DNA from: a virus | Virus record (IMG/VR): IMGVR_UViG_3300045241_000122 | Location: 1-37,483 of that record | Reading direction: 5' to 3' (one strand) | Length of the DNA: 37,483 bases | Shown: positions 4,226 to 37,483 of the stretch, piece after piece | Numbering within the stretch: the stretch's first letter is position 1 | How the letters are laid out: each line of letters starts with the position of its first letter | Made by a program: the position numbers and the translations under genes | Notes under the pieces: model-generated | Told to the model about the DNA's origin: nothing | What the model saw: only the letters and a program-made list of their open reading frames with translations | Databases searched by the model: none

Positions 4226-5604
4226 ATAGCCTCCAGCTGGGTGCGTTGTCGGGATTGCGGTCCTATCATTGTGGCTTTAATGCGGCCGGCGACGAACAGG
4301 CGTGCCATGGCTGCGACGAGTGCGGGCCTCCTGATGCCGGCTTCTTTGGCTTCTTTTTCTTTTGCGAAATTGGCTGGGGCGTAGCTGACGCTTGGTTTGT
4401 GACTGACGGCGCGGCCCTCGATCGTAAACCGGTGCAAGAGCGTCATGAAGACATCGTCGGCCTTTTGTGCGGCGAGGATGTCTTCGAGCGAACCGGCCGT
4501 CGGTTCTGGTGCGAACACGCCATCGCGCCATCGCAGCACGACGGCGGTGCCGGCCGGTCCGTAATTGTTTTTCACGAATTCGAGCTTGCGCAGCTCGGTG
4601 CCTGCGGGCTCCTCGTCTTCGTCGTCGCCGTCGTCCGCCTTGGCCTTGACGGCGGCGAGATACATTCGCGCGCGGACGCTGTTGTGCCAGGCTGTGCTGC
4701 CGCTCAATCCGCTTGCGCTTTTGAGCCCGGACAGCGATGGGTGTGACAGCAGGATCAGCGCGGCGCTGGTGGCCATTGCGAGTCCGCGCAGCAGCGTTAT
4801 GAATTGCCGTGTTTGCGATCGATCGATTTCGTTTCCGGCGAAGACGTCGGCTGCGGTGTCTATGACGATGAGCTTGGGGCGCAGGTTGAGCGCGTCGGTG
4901 CGCAGTTGCTCGAACATCGCTGTTGGCTTGACGATTCCGCTACGATCTGGTGCGGCGAGGATGGCGTCGGCGCCGGCGCGCGAGATCACCCACAGGCCGG
5001 CGTCCTTCAAGTTGGTACGCGTCGTGCCGTAGTGCTCCGCGATCTTTTCCAGCCGCCGGCAGATTTCGGCGTCGTCTTCCTCGGCCGAGAAGTAGAGCGC
5101 CGGGCCGCATTCTGGCAGCATGGTGACCCAGTCTTTTCCGAGCACCGTGGCGGCGCAGAGTTGCAGGATCAGCAGCGATTTGCCGATCGCGCCATGTCCT
5201 GAGAACAGCGTCACGGCGGCGGCCGGGATGCGATCGAGCACCTCCCACGCCCGCACCGGGATTGGATCGATGGCGATGTTGACATAGGTGAACGTGGGGG
5301 GCGTCGGCGCCTTGGCCTCATGCGCCTGGCCGTTTCCATTACCTTTCGTCTCGCTCGCGCGGATGCCGTCGGCTATCGCTGCTTGCACCGCATCGGCGCT
5401 GATTTCATGAACATCGATTGCCAGATCGGAGAGATGATCGATGGCGGCGCTATCGCCGAAAGGCGCGATCTTGGCGACGCCGTTGCGCAGGGCCATCAGC
5501 TTGTTGAGTTCGCCGTCTGCCTGGCTCATGGCGAGGTAGGCGGCGGTCATGGCCTTTGTCACGGCCAGCGGTCTGGTAACGTCCTCTCTGTCATCGTCCC
5601 GCAC
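4222..5604 (-). CDS. RepA-like replicative AAA (AAA_25/RecA-fold) helicase
   Basis: A 460-residue ATPase. Residues 108-330 form the RecA-like core seen in plasmid RepA and phage-encoded DNA helicases: Walker A GHGAIGKS at 136-143, Walker B LIVID with Asp249, and a Ser/His motif ILLSHPSLSG near 290. The region before 100 is helical and acidic. The C-terminal 110 residues, with KPSVSYAPANFAKEKEAKEA, may be a small winged-helix DNA-binding part. The start is a GTG at 5604 behind GAAAGGCG; an ATG 19 codons in is the alternative. It probably unwinds the phage origin. The upstream gene is an HTH protein and the iteron-like repeats follow directly. Confidence 0.82.
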   Translation of the reverse strand: MRDDDREDVTRPLAVTKAMTAAYLAMSQADGELNKLMALRNGVAKIAPFGDSAAIDHLSDLAIDVHEISADAVQAAIADGIRASETKGNGNGQAHEAKAPTPPTFTYVNIAIDPIPVRAWEVLDRIPAAAVTLFSGHGAIGKSLLILQLCAATVLGKDWVTMLPECGPALYFSAEEDDAEICRRLEKIAEHYGTTRTNLKDAGLWVISRAGADAILAAPDRSGIVKPTAMFEQLRTDALNLRPKLIVIDTAADVFAGNEIDRSQTRQFITLLRGLAMATSAALILLSHPSLSGLKSASGLSGSTAWHNSVRARMYLAAVKAKADDGDDEDEEPAGTELRKLEFVKNNYGPAGTAVVLRWRDGVFAPEPTAGSLEDILAAQKADDVFMTLLHRFTIEGRAVSHKPSVSYAPANFAKEKEAKEAGIRRPALVAAMARLFVAGRIKATMIGPQSRQRTQLEAI

Positions 5605-18481: not shown

Positions 18482-18808
18482 ATGACGGGCACCCTGAAGA
18501 CGCCCCGCGAGGCCGCCGAGCGGCTTGGCGTTTCGGTCAAAACCATCATAGGGCTGGTCGACGATGGTGCGTTGCGATTTGTCGATGTGGGCCGGGGCAA
18601 GGTCAAGCGCCGACTCAAGTTCAGAGATGAATATCTCGACGAATTCGTCGCCGACCGCTCGCGCAAGGAACCACCGCCATGTCGGTCAGGCTACGCCCCA
18701 AATATTCACCCTATTACCAATTCGAGTTCGAAATCGACGGTCGCCCATTTTCGGGCTCAACGAAATGCAGGAACCGGCGCGAGGCCGAAAGGTTCGAAGC
18801 CGACCTAA
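18482..18808 (+). CDS. xis: Excisionase-like MerR-type HTH protein
   Basis: A 108-residue protein whose first 60 residues are a winged-helix/MerR-like HTH_17 domain (TPREAAERLGVSVKTIIGLV then DDGALRFVDVGRGKVKRRLK, RDEYLDEFV), typical of phage excisionases. The last about 45 residues are read out of frame across the integrase 5' end (130-base overlap), look unconstrained, and exceed the usual 60-75 residue length. It should direct Int toward excision and bend attP DNA. Operator D precedes it, placing excision under the phage repressor. Confidence 0.75.
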   Translation: MTGTLKTPREAAERLGVSVKTIIGLVDDGALRFVDVGRGKVKRRLKFRDEYLDEFVADRSRKEPPPCRSGYAPNIHPITNSSSKSTVAHFRAQRNAGTGARPKGSKPT

Positions 18809-19866
18809 AGGCCAAGATTCGCCAGGACAATGAAAAGGCCAGGGCCGCCGGCAGGGTGCCGCTTCGCCTCGGCGATCTGCGCGAACGCTATTGGCAGGCG
18901 ATCGGCCAGCACCATGCCGGCGCCGGCAACACCAAGCGCCTGCTCGATGTCGTGGTCGGCTTCCTCGGCGCCGACAAGCTGATTACCGATATCACCGGCG
19001 ACGATGTCGACCGCCTCGTCAACATGCGGGCAACGACCCGCGTGCGCGGCGAGTTGCTCAAACCGGCGACCGTCAACGACACCACCGAGCAGCTCAAAAA
19101 GCTGTTCACCTATGCCAAGCACCTCGGGATCGTGGTGCCGAACCCGCCGACATGGCGCGCGTTCTGGAAGAAGGTCGAGCCGCGCAAGGCGCGCCGGCTC
19201 AAACCCGGCGAGGCCGCCCAACTCGCCGCCGCCATCCCCGACGACTATGCCCCCTATTTCGCATTCCTGCGGGCGACCGGCATGCGCGCCAATTGCGCGC
19301 GGCGGCTGCGCTGGGATCAGGTCGACTGGGACTGCGGCGAGATCAAGACTTTCGACAAGGGATCGGAGAACATCGACCCGATCACCGCCGCGGTGCGGGC
19401 GATCCTTTGGCCGCTGCGCGGTCACCATGATGAGTTCGTATTCACCTATGTGGCCGATCGCACCCGCACCTATCGCCTGGGAAAGAATGGCCGGGAGCGT
19501 GAGGAGGCCCGCGTCGCCGGCGAACGCTATCCGCTGACCTTCGAGGGCACCAAGACTGCGTGGCGCCGCGCGCGCGCGGCCTCGGGGGTGAAGGATTTTC
19601 GGCGCCATGATCTGCGCAGCGATTTTGGCTCGACCATGCTCTCGGCCACCGGCGACCTGGAGAAGGTGCAGCAGGCGCTCCACCACAAGAAGATCACCAC
19701 CACCGCGGCCTCTTATGCTCAGGGCACCAAGCCCGAGGTGCGGGCTGCGATCGAGGCGGCGCAGGGCGCGATCGGCGGCTGGTGCAGTTCGCCCCTTGCG
19801 GCCCCGTTACACGAAGTCGACGAAAGGTCCGGCAAAAGGTCCGGCAAACTGTCCCAGCGCAGATAG
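18679..19866 (+). CDS. int: Tyrosine integrase
   Basis: A 395-residue tyrosine recombinase. N-terminal arm-binding domain (residues 1-55), core-binding SAM-like domain (62-160), catalytic domain from about 175. Catalytic residues: Arg203 (ATGMRANCARRLRW), His310 and Arg313 (HDLRS), His336 (ALHHKKITT) and the nucleophile Tyr346 (TTAASYAQ). All are present, so it should be active. The C-terminus contains a tandem RSGK-RSGK encoded by the two left attP arm repeats. It inserts the phage at a tRNA-Pro(GGG) gene, judged from the core at 19911-19955. Confidence 0.93.
   Translation: MSVRLRPKYSPYYQFEFEIDGRPFSGSTKCRNRREAERFEADLKAKIRQDNEKARAAGRVPLRLGDLRERYWQAIGQHHAGAGNTKRLLDVVVGFLGADKLITDITGDDVDRLVNMRATTRVRGELLKPATVNDTTEQLKKLFTYAKHLGIVVPNPPTWRAFWKKVEPRKARRLKPGEAAQLAAAIPDDYAPYFAFLRATGMRANCARRLRWDQVDWDCGEIKTFDKGSENIDPITAAVRAILWPLRGHHDEFVFTYVADRTRTYRLGKNGREREEARVAGERYPLTFEGTKTAWRRARAASGVKDFRRHDLRSDFGSTMLSATGDLEKVQQALHHKKITTTAASYAQGTKPEVRAAIEAAQGAIGGWCSSPLAAPLHEVDERSGKRSGKLSQRR
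19825..19848 (+). repeat. Left-arm direct repeats of attP (two copies)
   Basis: Exact tandem of the 12-mer AGGTCCGGCAAA (19825-19836, 19837-19848), inside the last codons of int. The 10-bp heart GTCCGGCAAA recurs on the other side of the core at 20041 and 20072. Spacing and orientation fit integrase arm-type sites. Confidence 0.65.
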
Positions 19867-29875: not shown

Positions 29876-30511
29876 TTACGTCGCCGGTGGCGTCGTTCCA
29901 GGCGCTCCAGGCAACGGCTTGCCGCCCGCCGGGAAGTAACCCCAACCATATGCCGGGTGATAGCCCCAGCCACCATCAGGCGGCGGCGGCTTGCCTCCAT
30001 CTGGCGTCGTGCCTTCGGTCGGCGGCGGCGGCAGGACAATGGGATGCGACGGGATTGGTGCCTGCCCTTCGGGCGGATTCGGCCAAATCTGAACCGGAGG
30101 ACCGCCAGGAGTTACCGGCGGCAGGACAATCGGATGCTCAGGATGCGGCTGCGGCTTCACGCCCGGTCCCATCCCGCCTCCCCAATAACCTGGGGGCATG
30201 TCTGGCGGCCCCCAGATGCCGAGCGGCGGCTGGCCGGGAAACGGAGGCTGTGGTTTCACGCCCGGTCCCATCCCGCCACCCCAGTAACCGGGCGGCGAGG
30301 AGCCGGGAGGCCCGCCCGGATTGTAGATCGGGTGCGATGGGTAGGGCGGGTAGTAAATCGGGTGCTCTGGATGCGCACCAGCCGGCGGCTGTGGCATCGG
30401 AAATCCGATGTCGACATAAGGCGGACGAGGACCGCCCGGCATCGGACCGCCGCCGACGCCTACGTCACTAAAAAACAAAATTCCCTGAAACGTAACCGGT
30501 ATTGCTGCCAT
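29876..30511 (-). CDS. Pro/Gly-rich repetitive protein
   Basis: A 211-residue protein: an ordered start (IPVTFQGILFFSDVGVG) and then low-complexity Pro/Gly/Tyr/His sequence with recurring units: PPGYWGGGMGPGVKPQP twice, HPIVLPP twice, HPEHPI and SHPI repeats. Similar HPIVLPP-type proteins are common in rhizobial phages. It has no signal peptide. It may be a virion fibre component or a surface decoration; function unknown. Five bases downstream of the YkgJ-like gene's stop. Confidence 0.65.
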   Translation of the reverse strand: MAAIPVTFQGILFFSDVGVGGGPMPGGPRPPYVDIGFPMPQPPAGAHPEHPIYYPPYPSHPIYNPGGPPGSSPPGYWGGGMGPGVKPQPPFPGQPPLGIWGPPDMPPGYWGGGMGPGVKPQPHPEHPIVLPPVTPGGPPVQIWPNPPEGQAPIPSHPIVLPPPPTEGTTPDGGKPPPPDGGWGYHPAYGWGYFPAGGKPLPGAPGTTPPAT

Positions 30512-30515
30512 GTAT

Positions 30516-30944
30516 TTACCCTCCTGCTGCTTTCAGCATTTCGCGCCCTTTATCGAAAAGGGCCTTTGGTAATTTCCCACTCTTTACTGCTTCGCGGCGC
30601 CCCGCGCGATCCGATTTGCGAAACAATTCACGGCAATCGAACCGCTGGCATACATGTGGGGCGCGCCCGTGAATACTGCATCCGTTCGCAGTTAGATAGA
30701 TGCAATCGCCGTTCGGGCGCCGTTTGAGCGCGCGGCCGAGACGCTCGCCGGATCGCGTGGTGATCCACGCCCAGTCATATTGCTCGTACTCCTCCTGCGC
30801 CAAGGGAACGATCAGAGTTCGGCAGCACAGCGTGCACAAGCCGCACGGCACGTCGGAGCGCCTGTCGTCCTTATCGACGAGATGTGTCGGCCGTAAATCA
30901 GGCAGACGCGCGACGCTCGGAATGTCCTGCTTCATTTCTGCCAT
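30516..30944 (-). CDS. YkgJ-family Cys-cluster protein, copy 3
   Basis: A 142-residue protein with CGLCTLCCRTLIVPL, then RPNGDCIYLTANGCSIHGRA and CQRFDCRELFRKS; this is closest to the 15919 copy (shared RPNGDCIYL and RFDCR), so the two are likely paralogues within one genome. It sits in the late operon between the collagen-like fibre and the Pro/Gly-rich gene. Its start overlaps the fibre stop by one base (TAATG). Possible iron/zinc chelation or hydroxylation-related role near the collagen-like protein is inference. Confidence 0.78.
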   Translation of the reverse strand: MAEMKQDIPSVARLPDLRPTHLVDKDDRRSDVPCGLCTLCCRTLIVPLAQEEYEQYDWAWITTRSGERLGRALKRRPNGDCIYLTANGCSIHGRAPHVCQRFDCRELFRKSDRAGRREAVKSGKLPKALFDKGREMLKAAGG

Positions 30945-32974
30945 TATCTAACTCGTCGAGCACTGATATAGCCGGTCGCGGTGCACGTGCTGTTGAATGT
31001 GCCCTGCGCTGCGAGGTAGACGGTCGCCGGCGCACTCACATTGACGCGCGTCGGACCAGTTTGCATCGTTTGCGTGACACCATTGCCAAAGGTCAAACGA
31101 TACTGAGTCATATTTCCATTGCCAGCACAAATCTGCGCAGCAGTCGGCAACGCCGCGGAAGTATTCGAAACTGCCGCCGCAAGCGCGGTTGGTCCCTGCG
31201 CCGGGCTGAAGATGATGACGCCAGCCACCACCCAATCACCCGGCGTCAGCGCCAACGTCGCGACGTTCGCCGTGACGTTCGTGGTGAGGCTGACTGGCGT
31301 CGTCTGGCTGGTAGCGAGCTGCTCACCAAGATTCCCAGCCACCGCATTGTCGGCCGCGGCAGTGCCCTTGATCGGCTGCCGTGACGTATCGGTCGGGTGA
31401 ACGTGGTCAGACCTTGCCCATGTTGCAGCCACGCCACCCGTGCCGACGCCGTCCATTTGCGGCACGGCGTTCGATCCTGCCGGGTACACCGGCACAAAGA
31501 CTCTGCCGTCGCTGCCAAGCGTCGCCGTGTTGCCGGCATCGGCCGAGACCGCGACTGGGCCCGGAATACCTTGTATTCCCTGAACTCCCTGCGGTCCTTG
31601 AGGTCCCTGCGAACCGGTCACCCCGGGCGCACCGGCGCTACCCGCTGGACCTTGAATACCGGCGGTGCCCGGCGGTCCTTGCAGACCTTGCGAGCCCGCT
31701 CCACCCTGCAATCCTTGGGGTCCGGCTGGCCCGGCTGGTCCTGCTACAGTGGAATCTGCTCCTGCTGGGCCCGGAACGCCTTGGGGGCCGGCTGGACCAG
31801 CGGGGCCGGCTGGACCTTGTTGCCCTTGGGAGATGATCCCAAGGAGGATGTTCATGTTGTTGGTGAGGGTGCCGGCACCCGCCTTCCAGGCCACTGGAAT
31901 TTGACGGTACCCGGGTTGGGTAGCAAACGCTCCTGACGTGACGGTGTAGGAGTAGTACTGGGTCGCGTCGTCAGCGTTCTGGAGAAGGATTTCGTTGCCG
32001 GTCTGGATCAGCCCCAGGATAACGCTGATGTCGTTGCCCTGGGTCGAAAGGTTGCTGATGTAGAGGTTGGTTGCGTTCGCGGGAGTGGCAACGTCGATCT
32101 CGACGGTGCCGCTCGTAACTGGCGGGGCCACCGTGCTGGTCGAAAAAGCGTAGTTGAAGATGCTGCTGGTATTGCCTTGAGGACCTTGTTGACCTTGCGG
32201 TCCGGCAGCTCCTTGAATGCCTGGTGCGCCGTCGGCGCCAGCTGGACCTTGGGGACCCACATCTCCTTGGAGACCTTGTGGCCCCTGGATACCCTGTGGT
32301 CCAGCTGGGCCTTGCTGGCCATCGTTGCCGGCTGGTCCTTGGGGACCGGCTGGTCCGGCCAGGCCGGCTGTTCCGGCCGGACCGGCTGGTCCGGGATCGC
32401 CTTGCGGCCCCTGCGCGCCATCAGCGCCAGCCGGTCCTTGTGGCCCTTGTGTGCCCTGCGGGCCTAGGTCGCCTTGCGGGCCTGCCGCGCCTTGCGGGCC
32501 AGGATCGCCTTTTTGGCCTGCAGGTCCGATCGCACCCGGAATACCTGGTGCACCGTCAGCTCCGGCATTTCCTTGGGGACCGGCAGGCCCGGGAACGCCT
32601 TGCGGACCTGCAGGGCCGGCCGGACCTTGAGGACCCGGTGGGCCTTGGATTCCTCCGACACCACTATCGGCAATTGGCTGCCAGCCTGCGTTTTGTCGTC
32701 CATACATCGCTCCATCTTGCGGTGCCTCAGTAACGACCTCGTCCACCGGCACGATAGGCGTCCACGCCCCGTCCAGACGCGCGTGCGTGTCGCCATCTGA
32801 TGGAGCATCGGGAATGCCGGGACTGCCGGGCGGACCTTGCGGCCCGGGCGGGCCCGGGATGCCGGCATCTCCAGCACCGATCCGCGCCCACACCTTCTGG
32901 AACTCGGAGTCGACCTGCTTCAGGATCAGGCCGGGATCGAGGACGCTTGCAGGCTGGAAGATGGTGGTGGTCAT
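30944..32974 (-). CDS. Collagen-like phage fibre protein
   Basis: A 676-residue protein. The N-terminal 38 residues ([19 protein letters not shown]) look like a virion-anchoring helix. Three Gly-X-Y blocks follow (about 38-55, 108-275, 385-480; mostly GPQGPAG-type triplets, few charged residues). A beta-rich insert (about 280-380) separates two of them. The C-terminus contains the common fibre motif [20 protein letters not shown] and a beta-sandwich-like tail ([20 protein letters not shown]) probably used for trimerisation and receptor contact. It should be a tail fibre or a head/tail decoration. Confidence 0.85.
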
Positions 32975-32976
32975 GA

Positions 32977-34506
32977 TCAGGATACCCAGCTTAAACTCGA
33001 GTCATATCGATATCTGCTCGCGATCTTGTTGAAAGCGCCTGAACTCGCGTCAATCTGGTCCTTGTATTTTCCGACCGGGAAATGTTCGGCCTCTTCGAGA
33101 TAATTCTTCACCCATACCCCAACGACCAGCCGCACATTGCCGCCCTGCCACTGCGCAGCGAACGGCTCGGCGCGCATCTCCTTTGCGCCGCGCACCCGAT
33201 CGGCCTCGACGCGGAAGCCGGCGAGATTTCTGACCGTGGACTCCGCGCTCTCTTTGCCCCCGCTGCCCGGCTCCTGCTCAACCCAGACCTTGGTCAGGAA
33301 ATACTTTCTGCGATCCATCTCGGCGGTCTGCTTGATGATCCGCTCGCGATCGAGCGCCGACCATTGCCCGCGCCTCACATCAGCCACGACGAATGTGTTG
33401 TCGCGCATCCGCAGCATCAGGACACCGGCAGTGTAGGCACCGCCGCCGGCCGTGCCGCTCTTGTCCCAGTATCGCACCGCGGCGACGACACTCGCAGAGG
33501 GCGGCGCCTCCGAGATGATCGAGGCCATATGGATCGGGAACATGTCGCCGCCGACGACGATAGGCGCCTGCTGGTAGACGCTCTGCCAGCCTGCCAACGT
33601 CATCATGGCGCGCTGCTGCTCGAGAAACTCCGCCGACTTGAGTTCCGGGAAAAGCGGCTCGCCCACCTTGCGCACAAACGGCCCGATCGGGCGCCCCACC
33701 TCATCAATGGCCGTGTGCGTCTCTTCCTCTTCGGCCAGCGCCGCATAGCGGCACACGCGCACGTCCTTATGGCGCTCGATCAGGCGGCCCGCAGGATCGT
33801 CCAGATGCCATCGAGTCATCACCAGCAACAAGGCGGCGCCGTCGGCGAAACGCGTCATGAAATCGTCGGTCATCCAATTCCACGTCTTATCGCGGGTGAG
33901 CTTCGAGCTAGCCTCGGCGCGGCCTTTGATGGGGTCGTCGATGACGCCCAGGTCCAGTCCCTCACCGGTCACCGCGCCTGCGATCGTGGTGTTGCGGAAG
34001 GACCCGCGTTCCAGGCCAGTTCCGTGAAACTCGATCATCTCGCTATTGGAGCGCCGAACAGATGGGTTGACAGCGTTGTGCCCGAATATCTTGGCGTGCT
34101 TGGGATCGGCGAGGATGCGCTGCAGTCGAAGGTTCGCGCGAATGCCGAGCCGCTCGCTGAAAGACGCGAAGATGATTTTCAGTTGTGGGTCCGGCCCGCT
34201 CAAGCCGATGATCCACGAGAGGAAGTCTACGACTTGGGTGCTTTTCCCCAATTGTGGAGGCGACTGCAGCAGGAGTTTTGGCCGCCGCCCGGCGCGATAG
34301 TCCAGCCAAAAGCGGTGCAATTCGAGCGCAACCTCGCGCTGCCACCATCCCATGATCATGCGCGGATTGAGATAGCGGCGATACGCCCAGAAGGATTCGC
34401 GCGATTCGCGCTGGGCCTGCTGCTCCATGAGCCACAGGTCTTCCTCGGTGTAGGGGCGCGGCGCTGGGACGTTGATGTTCACGCACATCACCACATCGGC
34501 GCGCAT
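32977..34506 (-). CDS. terL: Terminase large subunit
   Basis: A 509-residue packaging motor. ATPase: Walker [14 protein letters not shown] (residues 78-90), Walker [10 protein letters not shown] (Asp190/Asp191), coupling motif LLVMTRWH (228-234). Nuclease part: [10 protein letters not shown] with Asp348 and [12 protein letters not shown]. Length is typical. The ATG at 34506 has no good ribosome site, and a stop lies 16 codons upstream in frame, so no longer start exists. It translocates and cuts phage DNA. The small subunit is not adjacent; the 3479-3970 gene is the only weak candidate. Confidence 0.92.
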
Positions 34507-34547: not shown

Positions 34548-37475
34548 TCATGCGCTGCCTAGGAAGGCTTCATCCGGCGTGCCAAAAATCTCTGCGGTCC
34601 AGCCCGACATGCTGCGGAAGTGCGGGGCAATCTCGTTCTTGTATCTGATCCAACTCGGGCGGAATGCAATCGCCGATTGCCACTTTTGCCCGCGGATGTA
34701 GTGCGCGCCGCCCACGGTCATCGGCACCCCGACCCCGATAATCTTCTGATGCCCTTCCCGCCGCGCCACCTGAACGGCAAATAGTCCCGACGAGCCGCCC
34801 CAGTCCATCCCGGTGTCATGGGTGATCTCTGGAGCCTTGCGATGCGCCCAAATCTGTTCTGGCTCCGGCAGCCCAGCCTTGCGCCGGCCATTCAGCCAGG
34901 CGATGGGCCCCACAAGCTTGTCGGGATGCAGCGTGACCGCGACGCATTCATCGGGGAAAGTCTTGATCTGGTCGTTTATGGCAAATACGCGGAAGGGCAA
35001 ATTGCCAATCAGCTTCCTGGCCGACTCCAAATCCTGCCTCCAGCACGTGGCACCGCCGAGCACGATTGCCACCGTGGATGCATGGGACGTCGCATTTGAT
35101 ACCTGACTCGGCAAACTCGGCAAACTGGACAAATCACCGGCTTTGCGCGCCTCGAACGTGCATGACTCGATCTGATTGAAGTAGTCCCCAATGACCCGGC
35201 CGTGCCCCTCGACGCCACGGAGCGCCGGGTCCTCCGATAGCCCAGACTCGCACGCCAGCACGTCATCGAAGCCTGCGAAGTAAAGCGTATCGCGCATAAG
35301 CTGCGCGTTCCATGCCGTTTCATGGCCATGCGCGTAAATGATCGCGCTCATGGCGCCACGCTTGTTGGGCCCGAGCTTCTGCCACTTGGTCGTAAAACGG
35401 TGGTAGTCAGCGTCATCACATGCGGCGATCTGCTCGAGACTAGGAACTGTCACCCGCAGCACGCCGCCTGGCGCCAGCACCCGATGAGCCTCCTGGAAGA
35501 AGCCAATCGCCGCCTTATAGGGAACGTGCTCGACGCAATGCTCGATGTTGATGTGGCTGGCGCTGTTGTCCGGCCACGGCAGCTTTTTGGTGATATCGAC
35601 ATCGGCATCGTGGTTTTCCCAGCCTGGGAGCTTGTTCGTGCCGCACCCCAAATTGAATTTCCTAGGCATTGCTGCCGCCTCCTTGCGCTGTTGAGCGCAG
35701 GCTGCGTCGACAAACCTGCGATAGGCGCCCTGCTGCGCGCTGTCGTGCTGATGTGTGACCCAATCGAGGTTCAGCTCGAGGATATTTGCCACGGTGATCG
35801 TATTCTTGTCCGCGCGCCACGCCTTCCACGGCATAATCCGGCATTGCCTGGTCGTCTGATCGAGGATTTGCTGCCGGATCACCCGCTCCGGGGTCGGCGC
35901 GACCTTCCGGTTCGGCCACTCATAGCGTCGTACGAAATCGCTGCGCCGAAGGTAATCCGTCGAAAAGAACATGAGCCCGGTCTCGACCCAGAGCTTTTCA
36001 TGCTCCTTGTGTTTCATCCCCTTCACATCGGTGGTTGCGCAATCGGCCTTCTCCTGCTGCATCCACCGGGTGATGTCCCCCACGCGGAGCCGGAACAGGC
36101 TGTCGCCTTCGATGTGAACCACGTAGTCGTATCCCAGCTCGCAGGCGATCTCTAATCCCTTGCAAAAGGCCCGTCCCCAGCCGTCACGCCCCTCCGTCAC
36201 ACCTTTGCGGCTGAGATGGCCGATGTTGTCCGGAAAATTAAAGACCATCCGGTGGTGCCGCTTGCCGTCATACGGCGTCCAGTCTTCGAATTTCAGAATC
36301 GGCGACTGGCTGTCGACGGCGAGGAAATCGCAATCTCGTTCATTTAATGAGAAGTGCAGCCGCTTCCACAGGTCCGTGAGATTGTCCCTGTCCGGGCTGT
36401 CCACATAGAACGTTCCGAACAACAGGGTGCTGCGCCTGGCCGCAAACGCCGTCACCGCCGTCACCGCCTTCGGCACATCGATTGTCTTGTCGCAGCGGTG
36501 CTTGTTGCTGTGACAATCGCATGGATTAACAACGTCCACCGGGAGCGTGGGGGCGAGATGCGCGCCGACCCGCTGCGTGGTCCGGTAGCTCTCGCGGCCG
36601 CCGTAGACCACGACAACCTGGGTCCCCACGGCCTGCGCCAGGACCGGCGCGAAGCCCGCATTGCAATAGACGAGGTCAGCCTGTGCGAACAGCGCGGCCA
36701 TCTCTTCGAACGCCAGCTCGCCGTTATGCAGTCTGACATCCACCGGCTGCTCAGGCCCCTCGATCCACTCCTCTCCGCGCAGCAGGTCGGCGACGCTCAC
36801 CACAAAGAACTGGTCGCGGATCGAATGGTAGATGGCGTCGTAAGCCGCTGGGTCGGGATTACGTGACCGGCCGTCCCACTCCCGGCGCACCACGATCGGC
36901 CGGTGCACCATCAACGCTTTGCCACCGGTATTCCATCGCCCCTGCACCGAACTCCGCCACTCCGGCTTGATCGGCAGGCTGAAATCCGGCCGCTCGGGCA
37001 TTCGTAGATCGACGCAGGAAAACATCGCCTCAAGGATTGATCCATGCTGGTCGATCAGCGTCTTCGGGTAGCCGATACGGGCCTGCCGTGCTGTCGCCGG
37101 AGCGGCAGGAAACTTGGCCTGCTCGAACAGCGGCCGCTCGCGGGCGATTGTCCTCGCCTGCGCATGAAGGCTCGTCGGCCGCATCACCAGTTTCAGCCCC
37201 TTGGCGACGAGATCATGGTAAAGATTAAAATGGCAGGTGTGCAACCAGACATCATAATCCCGCATCAGGACGCGCATCACTGCCCGCTGATGCAGGTTGT
37301 CGCCGATACCGAAATGCCCGGTCACCGAAATGCATGGCTTTGCCTTCTCCTGCGTCACCTTCGGCGGAAGCGGCGGCAGGTGGGCGTGACGCTCGAACCT
37401 CGCAGGTGCCACCACGAGGTCGTTGCGCGCCAGCAGCCGGTCGGCTGTGCCCTGGTCGAGGTCGGCGTACCTCAT
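34548..37475 (-). CDS. Four-domain glycosyltransferase-methyltransferase fusion
   Basis: A 975-residue protein. Domain 1 (about 45-345) resembles GT9 heptosyltransferases (GHFGIGDNLHQR near 53, YCNAGFAPVLAQAVGTQVVV, and a closing NPCDCHSNKHRCDKTIDVPK). Domain 2 (348-600) is GT-A-like with a DxD-type IEGDS near 456 (YDYVVHIEGDSLFRLRV). Domain 3 (603-790) is a class I methyltransferase (KFNLGCGTNKLPGW, CVEHVPYKAAIGFFQEAHRV, LAPGGVLRV). Domain 4 (800-975) is DUF115-like (AIVLGGATCW, GGSSGLFAVQVARREG, IIGVGVPM). A strong internal ribosome site precedes Met603. Likely glycan modification of the phage particle or host surface. It precedes terL by 41 bases. Confidence 0.75.
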   Translation of the reverse strand: MRYADLDQGTADRLLARNDLVVAPARFERHAHLPPLPPKVTQEKAKPCISVTGHFGIGDNLHQRAVMRVLMRDYDVWLHTCHFNLYHDLVAKGLKLVMRPTSLHAQARTIARERPLFEQAKFPAAPATARQARIGYPKTLIDQHGSILEAMFSCVDLRMPERPDFSLPIKPEWRSSVQGRWNTGGKALMVHRPIVVRREWDGRSRNPDPAAYDAIYHSIRDQFFVVSVADLLRGEEWIEGPEQPVDVRLHNGELAFEEMAALFAQADLVYCNAGFAPVLAQAVGTQVVVVYGGRESYRTTQRVGAHLAPTLPVDVVNPCDCHSNKHRCDKTIDVPKAVTAVTAFAARRSTLLFGTFYVDSPDRDNLTDLWKRLHFSLNERDCDFLAVDSQSPILKFEDWTPYDGKRHHRMVFNFPDNIGHLSRKGVTEGRDGWGRAFCKGLEIACELGYDYVVHIEGDSLFRLRVGDITRWMQQEKADCATTDVKGMKHKEHEKLWVETGLMFFSTDYLRRSDFVRRYEWPNRKVAPTPERVIRQQILDQTTRQCRIMPWKAWRADKNTITVANILELNLDWVTHQHDSAQQGAYRRFVDAACAQQRKEAAAMPRKFNLGCGTNKLPGWENHDADVDITKKLPWPDNSASHINIEHCVEHVPYKAAIGFFQEAHRVLAPGGVLRVTVPSLEQIAACDDADYHRFTTKWQKLGPNKRGAMSAIIYAHGHETAWNAQLMRDTLYFAGFDDVLACESGLSEDPALRGVEGHGRVIGDYFNQIESCTFEARKAGDLSSLPSLPSQVSNATSHASTVAIVLGGATCWRQDLESARKLIGNLPFRVFAINDQIKTFPDECVAVTLHPDKLVGPIAWLNGRRKAGLPEPEQIWAHRKAPEITHDTGMDWGGSSGLFAVQVARREGHQKIIGVGVPMTVGGAHYIRGQKWQSAIAFRPSWIRYKNEIAPHFRSMSGWTAEIFGTPDEAFLGSA

Positions 37476-37483
37476 CGCTCCTG

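Follow-up and report, generated by a model that had tools for sequence, protein, structure and literature searches.

The window, the whole 37,483 bases of a virus record, ends on its minus strand in a gene whose product joins four domains in one chain, namely a GT9-like domain, a predicted GT-A glycosyltransferase, a methyltransferase and a DUF115/MptE-like domain (Table 1). At the place given in the preliminary description, an ORF check found an uninterrupted 975-codon ORF with an ATG start at 34548-37475 (-), and the reading frame runs open to the contig edge, so that the 975-residue ORF is cut by the edge. A second contig encoding a 100% identical protein (L002) extends beyond this edge and has an upstream start, MIYMVTNMAPSPRAFYDTRNQEIMLQPGAMRYADL... 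(MIY..N..ARIFYD..), and an upstream start is likewise seen in the relatives L003-L005. The start therefore has to be moved beyond the window, giving a true protein of about 1004 aa with about 29 codons outside it. The N-terminal module of about 65 aa completed in this way, only the end of which lies in the window, is present in all the fusions (L002-L005 and others) and in no other ORF searched. The fusion protein has no membrane-like segment and appears to be soluble.

Table 1. Features of the fusion gene and its downstream neighbours in the window
Feature	Position	Strand	Basis or remark
Four-domain fusion gene	34548..37481	-	975 aa from first ATG in window; about 1004 aa in L002
Rest of conserved N-terminal module of about 65 aa (window residues 1-37)	37365..37481	-	Fusions only
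Domain 1 (residues 40-345), GT9 / heptosyltransferase-like, GT-B type, phrog_6804	36441..37358	-	PHROG, PF01075, hhalign
Asp59 of GIGD	37299..37301	-	Invariant in 70 sequences
Cys-x-Cys...His-x-Cys cluster (C319, C321, H326, C328), end of domain 1	36492..36521	-	
Domain 2 (residues 346-600), predicted GT-A fold glycosyltransferase	35676..36440	-	AF2 model, Foldseek
EGDS (residues 456-459), DxD-like motif	36099..36110	-	Invariant in ten full fusions
Domain 3 (residues ~601-785), class I SAM methyltransferase	35121..35675	-	PF08241, phrog_6636, alignment
SAM-binding motif I NLGCG (residues 608-612)	35640..35654	-	Alignment
Domain 4 (residues 796-975), DUF115/MptE-like, homologue of PAJU2 gp10 (annotated sialyltransferase)	34551..35090	-	jackhmmer, hhalign, AF2, Foldseek
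terL, next gene downstream (Terminase_6N/6C)	32977..34506	-	Pfam, PHROGs
Collagen-like fibre gene	30944..32974	-	Proposed acceptor, not supported

The fusion ORF lies 41 nt upstream of terL. Its earlier placement in a packaging operon needs correcting: terL follows the fusion only here and in the closest relatives L003 and L004, and the conserved neighbour is instead a fibre module upstream. Beyond the collagen-like fibre gene are a CxxCxxCC-domain protein at 30516-30944 (-) and a Pro/Gly-rich ORF of 211 aa at 29876-30511 (-). An integrase-family gene is located at 18679-19866 (+), with a PF00589 match at 19204-19725, and the phage is thus probably temperate.

Assignment of the four domains

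The four domains had previously been assigned from the sequence, and the assignment held in independent tests based on profiles, predicted folds and motifs, in which domains 1, 2 and 4 did match glycosyltransferase or DUF115 families or folds. Domain 1 is, by profile similarity over the whole domain, a relative of the GT9 (heptosyltransferase) family. It is matched at 1.5e-32 by phrog_6804, to which PHROGs assigns no function, and by PF01075 in 22 of the 70 members of its own family, all below the gathering cut-off. In hhalign, its profile aligned with bacterial GT9 along its length (columns 4-303) at 96.3% and E 2e-9, with unrelated control pairs scoring below 3%. The GIGD/GxGD motif is invariant in all 70 sequences and supplies the Asp in the N-terminal glycine-rich loop, and Asp59 would sit at the position of the GT9 catalytic base. 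A tree of domain 1 grouped the fusions from viruses in a single clade (95/90) and set the phage GT9s together apart from six bacterial GT9s (100/100), on branches that the program flagged as long. The WaaF structure 1psw was rejected as a PDB match, having appeared among chance matches at E 0.65 in the profile search, and a PDB search with the single fusion sequence returned chance matches only.

The Cys/His cluster at the end of domain 1 is a possible metal site. The bacterial autotransporter heptosyltransferases (TibC/AAH) are GT-B enzymes that resemble WaaC of GT9, act on protein and carry a Cys metal cluster in the C-lobe (PMC4358343). By description, the likeness between the fusion and the TibC/AAH enzymes is limited to GT9-like kinship: TibC has an N-terminal beta-barrel and cysteines at 339, 342, 358 and 370, whereas the phage cluster is a C-x-C...H-x-C at the C-terminal end. 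As the four-Cys spacing does not match, a TibC-type iron finger was rejected.

Domain 2 had no family match in the profile and family searches, and de novo TIM barrels returned by the profile PDB search were dismissed as chance matches. Its AF2 model (pLDDT 87.5, pTM 0.89) is predicted to fold as a GT-A glycosyltransferase; among the Foldseek PDB matches listed, all 50 were GT-A enzymes (e.g. TarP, UGGT and LARGE1), and the fold is accompanied by the DxD-like motif EGDS. Domain 3 combines an intact SAM motif I with a PF08241 match at 1e-5, over the cut-off and the sole domain seen by single-sequence Pfam, and with a match to the methyltransferase family phrog_6636, placing it among the class I SAM methyltransferases.

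Domain 4 was matched weakly by a sialyltransferase family in PHROGs, was recovered at 5e-37 by a jackhmmer search started from PAJU2 gp10, and returned no match in a profile PDB search. hhalign gave 97.2% (E 3e-11) for the gp10-like family against PF01973 proteins and 74.5% (E 2.7e-5) for domain 4 itself against large bacterial PF01973 proteins, while PF01973 matched 7 of 23 family members, weakly. The AF2 model, built from an alignment of rows from selected loci with phage-collection rows left out, had a pLDDT of 93.8, and Foldseek placed it closest, among solved folds, to MptE/HPPK of M. jannaschii and to CST-II, a sialyltransferase, with E values that were modest (3e-3 to 7e-3). Profile and fold similarity to DUF115/MptE-like (PF01973) proteins were thus both found, and would place domain 4 near the DUF115, MptE, Maf and CST proteins. 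Its reading as a glycosyltransferase rather than an HPPK is provisional, given that the matches include both MptE/HPPK and CST-II and that MptE itself is a pyrophosphokinase.

Distribution of the fusion and of a DUF115-GT9 cassette

The four-domain chain also occurs in nine viral contigs (L003, L004, L005, L014, L015, L022, L026, L027 and L028) at 51-92% identity, and separately in L021, where the fusion is cut by the contig end. Each of the ten full fusions keeps the GIGD, EGDS and SAM-loop motifs unchanged. Comparison with L003-L005 gave dN/dS of 0.05-0.17 in each domain, indicating purifying selection, with synonymous sites unsaturated only against L003 and L004. This retention of the chain and these ratios exclude a chance ORF, and the fusion ORF is real; the occurrence of the same chain in independent contigs rules out an assembly artefact or a frameshift fusion.

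Two further contigs, L024 and L025, carry a split form in which GT9, GT-A and methyltransferase domains share one ORF, with a separate intact methyltransferase and a second GT-A encoded as individual genes. In both, the methyltransferase domain within the fusion has lost its SAM motif and the intact copy lies downstream, which suggests a role other than catalysis for the degenerate domain and that some phages may do without the activity of one or another domain. A prophage of Mesorhizobium ciceri (L099) has a 959-aa ORF with the permuted order DUF115-like, GT9, GT-A and methyltransferase. Immediately before it come genes whose sequences read as terminase, portal, protease/capsid and decoration-like, and after it an FkbM-type methyltransferase whose family match was just under the cut-off. 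Among 50,697 records of isolated phages, none matched 80% of the fusion. The gene had been called unusual for a phage, and this applies to the four-domain fusion, which is rare, but not to its parts, which are common phage genes.

Stand-alone relatives of domain 1 were found in 233 viral stretches, as well as in D3-like Pseudomonas, Enterobacter, Klebsiella, Serratia and Synechococcus phages. Across 74 distinct loci, a DUF115-like gene or domain lay within 3 kb of the GT9 in 65 (44 times upstream of it and 21 times downstream), and the two were fused in 16. The usual order is portal, protease, capsid, adaptor, [DUF115, GT9, MT], neck and terminator, a methyltransferase often accompanying the pair in this block. 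The alternative setting is a tail-fibre module (cluster c3, with tail-fibre profile matches), seen in the fusion phages and in phages with GT9 followed by DUF115. The recurrence of the same activities in differing orders and states of fusion suggests a shared pathway.

The cassette of the D3-like phages (PAJU2 gp10-gp11-gp12; D3 orf12) resembles the fusion in containing homologues of domain 1 (gp11) and of domain 4 (gp10), with a methyltransferase next in the row and all of them between head closure and tail terminator. It differs in consisting of separate genes with no GT-A domain among them. Kinship between domain 3 and the gp12 methyltransferase was considered and rejected, the two being not detectably related (hhalign 0.7%). 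In the literature searched, no functional study of the D3 cassette was found.

Proposed virion glycosylation and the alternatives to it

The fusion is most readily explained as a cytosolic, single-chain glycan-assembly enzyme made together with the virion proteins and decorating one of them, a reading given a probability of about 0.58. The GT9 domain would start the glycan with a sugar taken from a nucleotide donor, ADP-heptose or a related compound being most likely, and the GT-A domain would add a second sugar. The DUF115/MptE-like domain, with its GT42/Maf-like fold, might transfer a further sugar or prime the protein acceptor, and the methyltransferase would O-methylate the product to form a cap. 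As acceptor, a virion surface protein is favoured by the location of the gene, its same-strand arrangement with the structural genes and the absence of any membrane-like segment; the glycan would most likely be attached to Ser/Thr of such a protein encoded in the adjacent tail-fibre or head-tail module. What we infer are the identity of the donor, the order of the steps, the protein acceptor and the location on the virion; seen directly are the four folds or families, the conserved motifs, the purifying selection, the recurrent linkage and fusion, and the location with virion genes.

The preliminary description had proposed that the enzyme could build and cap a methylated sugar on the virion, for example on the collagen-like fibre, or could alter host surface sugar to block superinfection. 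Building and capping is the best-supported reading, but the collagen-like fibre was rejected as acceptor for want of support: it is not a conserved neighbour, a collagen-like gene being found among the other fusion loci only in the L004 flank, and its G-X-Y part is poor in potential acceptors, since only 9 of its 273 residues are Ser/Thr and one is Lys.

With respect to the donor, no sugar-nucleotide genes were found by Pfam and PHROGs in the scanned window ORFs, and the donor would therefore come from the host pool or from genes outside the contig. In L026, genes soon after the fusion have as their best matches heptose-7-phosphate kinase (3e-76) and heptose-1-phosphate adenylyltransferase (2e-41), both below NCBIfam cut-offs, and an epimerase best matches ADP-heptose epimerase (2e-67 for the complete gene, also below the NCBIfam cut-off). 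This set, comprising a split HldE-like kinase and adenylyltransferase and an HldD-like epimerase (L026 8504-10892 (+); complete epimerase in L154 at 4515-5465 (-)), would give this phage contig a pathway of the ADP-heptose type. L025 has genes for an HddA-like kinase and an epimerase, and L080 has a gmd gene over the cut-off and a GDP-fucose-synthase-like gene. GT9 kinship and the gene sets of one or two relatives suggest that the fusion would use heptose-type donors, and the GDP-fucose genes that donors vary among relatives. The gmd (GDP-mannose 4,6-dehydratase) and GDP-fucose-synthase-like genes of L080 are located downstream of the GT9 and DUF115 genes in the fibre region, and L044 has, in the corresponding place, a GDP-mannose 4,6-dehydratase gene read from sequence and a DUF5672 gene.

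An alternative explanation is lysogenic conversion or superinfection exclusion, in which adsorption of other phages would be blocked by a change that the enzyme makes to a glycan of the host surface, LPS core or O-antigen. The integrase-family gene, by which the phage is probably temperate, leaves room for such modification; glycolipid sialyltransferases are among the enzymes with DUF115/CST-II-like folds, and GT9 enzymes are mostly LPS heptosyltransferases. In P. aeruginosa prophages, a GT9 and a methyltransferase have been tabled among viral defence proteins (PMC10449497). However, in unrelated phages the gene does not form a unit of its own but is embedded in the virion genes and shares their orientation, and the protein has no membrane-like segment; surface conversion is considered unlikely. 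The known seroconversion genes of D3 are other genes, which also counts against it. A host protein or small molecule could instead be the target, with glycosylation serving counter-defence or host take-over. The apparent solubility of the enzyme would suit this, but a virion target agrees better with a gene that stays linked to head-tail and fibre genes and that, in some phages, is also linked to sugar-nucleotide genes; a host target is considered improbable. Some phage glycosyltransferases do glycosylate DNA (reviewed in PMC12619734), and sugars could in principle be added to modified bases of the phage genome. The fusion is, however, located among structural genes, and a search that did detect its control found no thymidylate-synthase/hydroxymethylase-family gene in 12 fusion or cassette phage records, several of which may be fragments. 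DNA hypermodification appears very improbable. A Tet/JBP search gave no match, with its control silent as well.

Decoration of a virion protein has parallels in other systems. In PBCV-1, A064R is a verified GT-GT-MT chain that acts on and finishes the capsid glycan (PMC7019647, PMC9614988); A064R and A111/114R are single viral polypeptides with several glycosyltransferase domains that assemble and cap the major capsid protein's glycan, A064R also having a methyltransferase. The fusion may work like A064R in principle, with other domain families and in a bacterial virus. The comparison is by description, and PBCV-1 differs in being a eukaryotic virus with an N-glycan, rhamnose donors for A064R and no GT9 or DUF115 domain described. 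Maf flagellin glycosyltransferases (PF01973/DUF115) O-glycosylate Ser/Thr of flagellin (PMC11339370). The large bacterial PF01973 proteins with which the phage DUF115/MptE-like domain aligns may or may not be Maf enzymes; at about 180 aa, the phage domain has none of the remaining parts of Maf. For tailed phages, glycosylated capsid and tail-tube proteins of a mycobacteriophage (Freeman 2023, as cited in PMC12619734) offer a precedent for glycans on virion proteins, likened here by description and not by sequence.

More tentatively, these phages may share a widespread and undescribed tailed-phage virion-glycosylation system, with a DUF115/Maf-like and GT9 core pair in a head-tail or fibre module and ADP-heptose-type donors. 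The window would then hold its assembly-line version, three transferases and a methyl cap in one polypeptide, as an independent parallel to the chlorovirus A064R. Routine glycosylation of particles by a shared DUF115-GT9-methyltransferase cassette would bear on immune recognition, stability and adsorption, and would supply a compact multi-step glycosylation enzyme. It would also make phrog_6804, present in more than 200 viral contigs, directly testable in laboratory-grown D3-like phages.

Other genes near the fusions include a radical SAM/SPASM protein in L024 (3325-4236), a candidate of the same kind in L027 (8897-10348) with a weak SPASM match, and FkbM methyltransferases in L024 (7816-8481) and L025 (9629-10342), all of them possible further sugar-tailoring genes.
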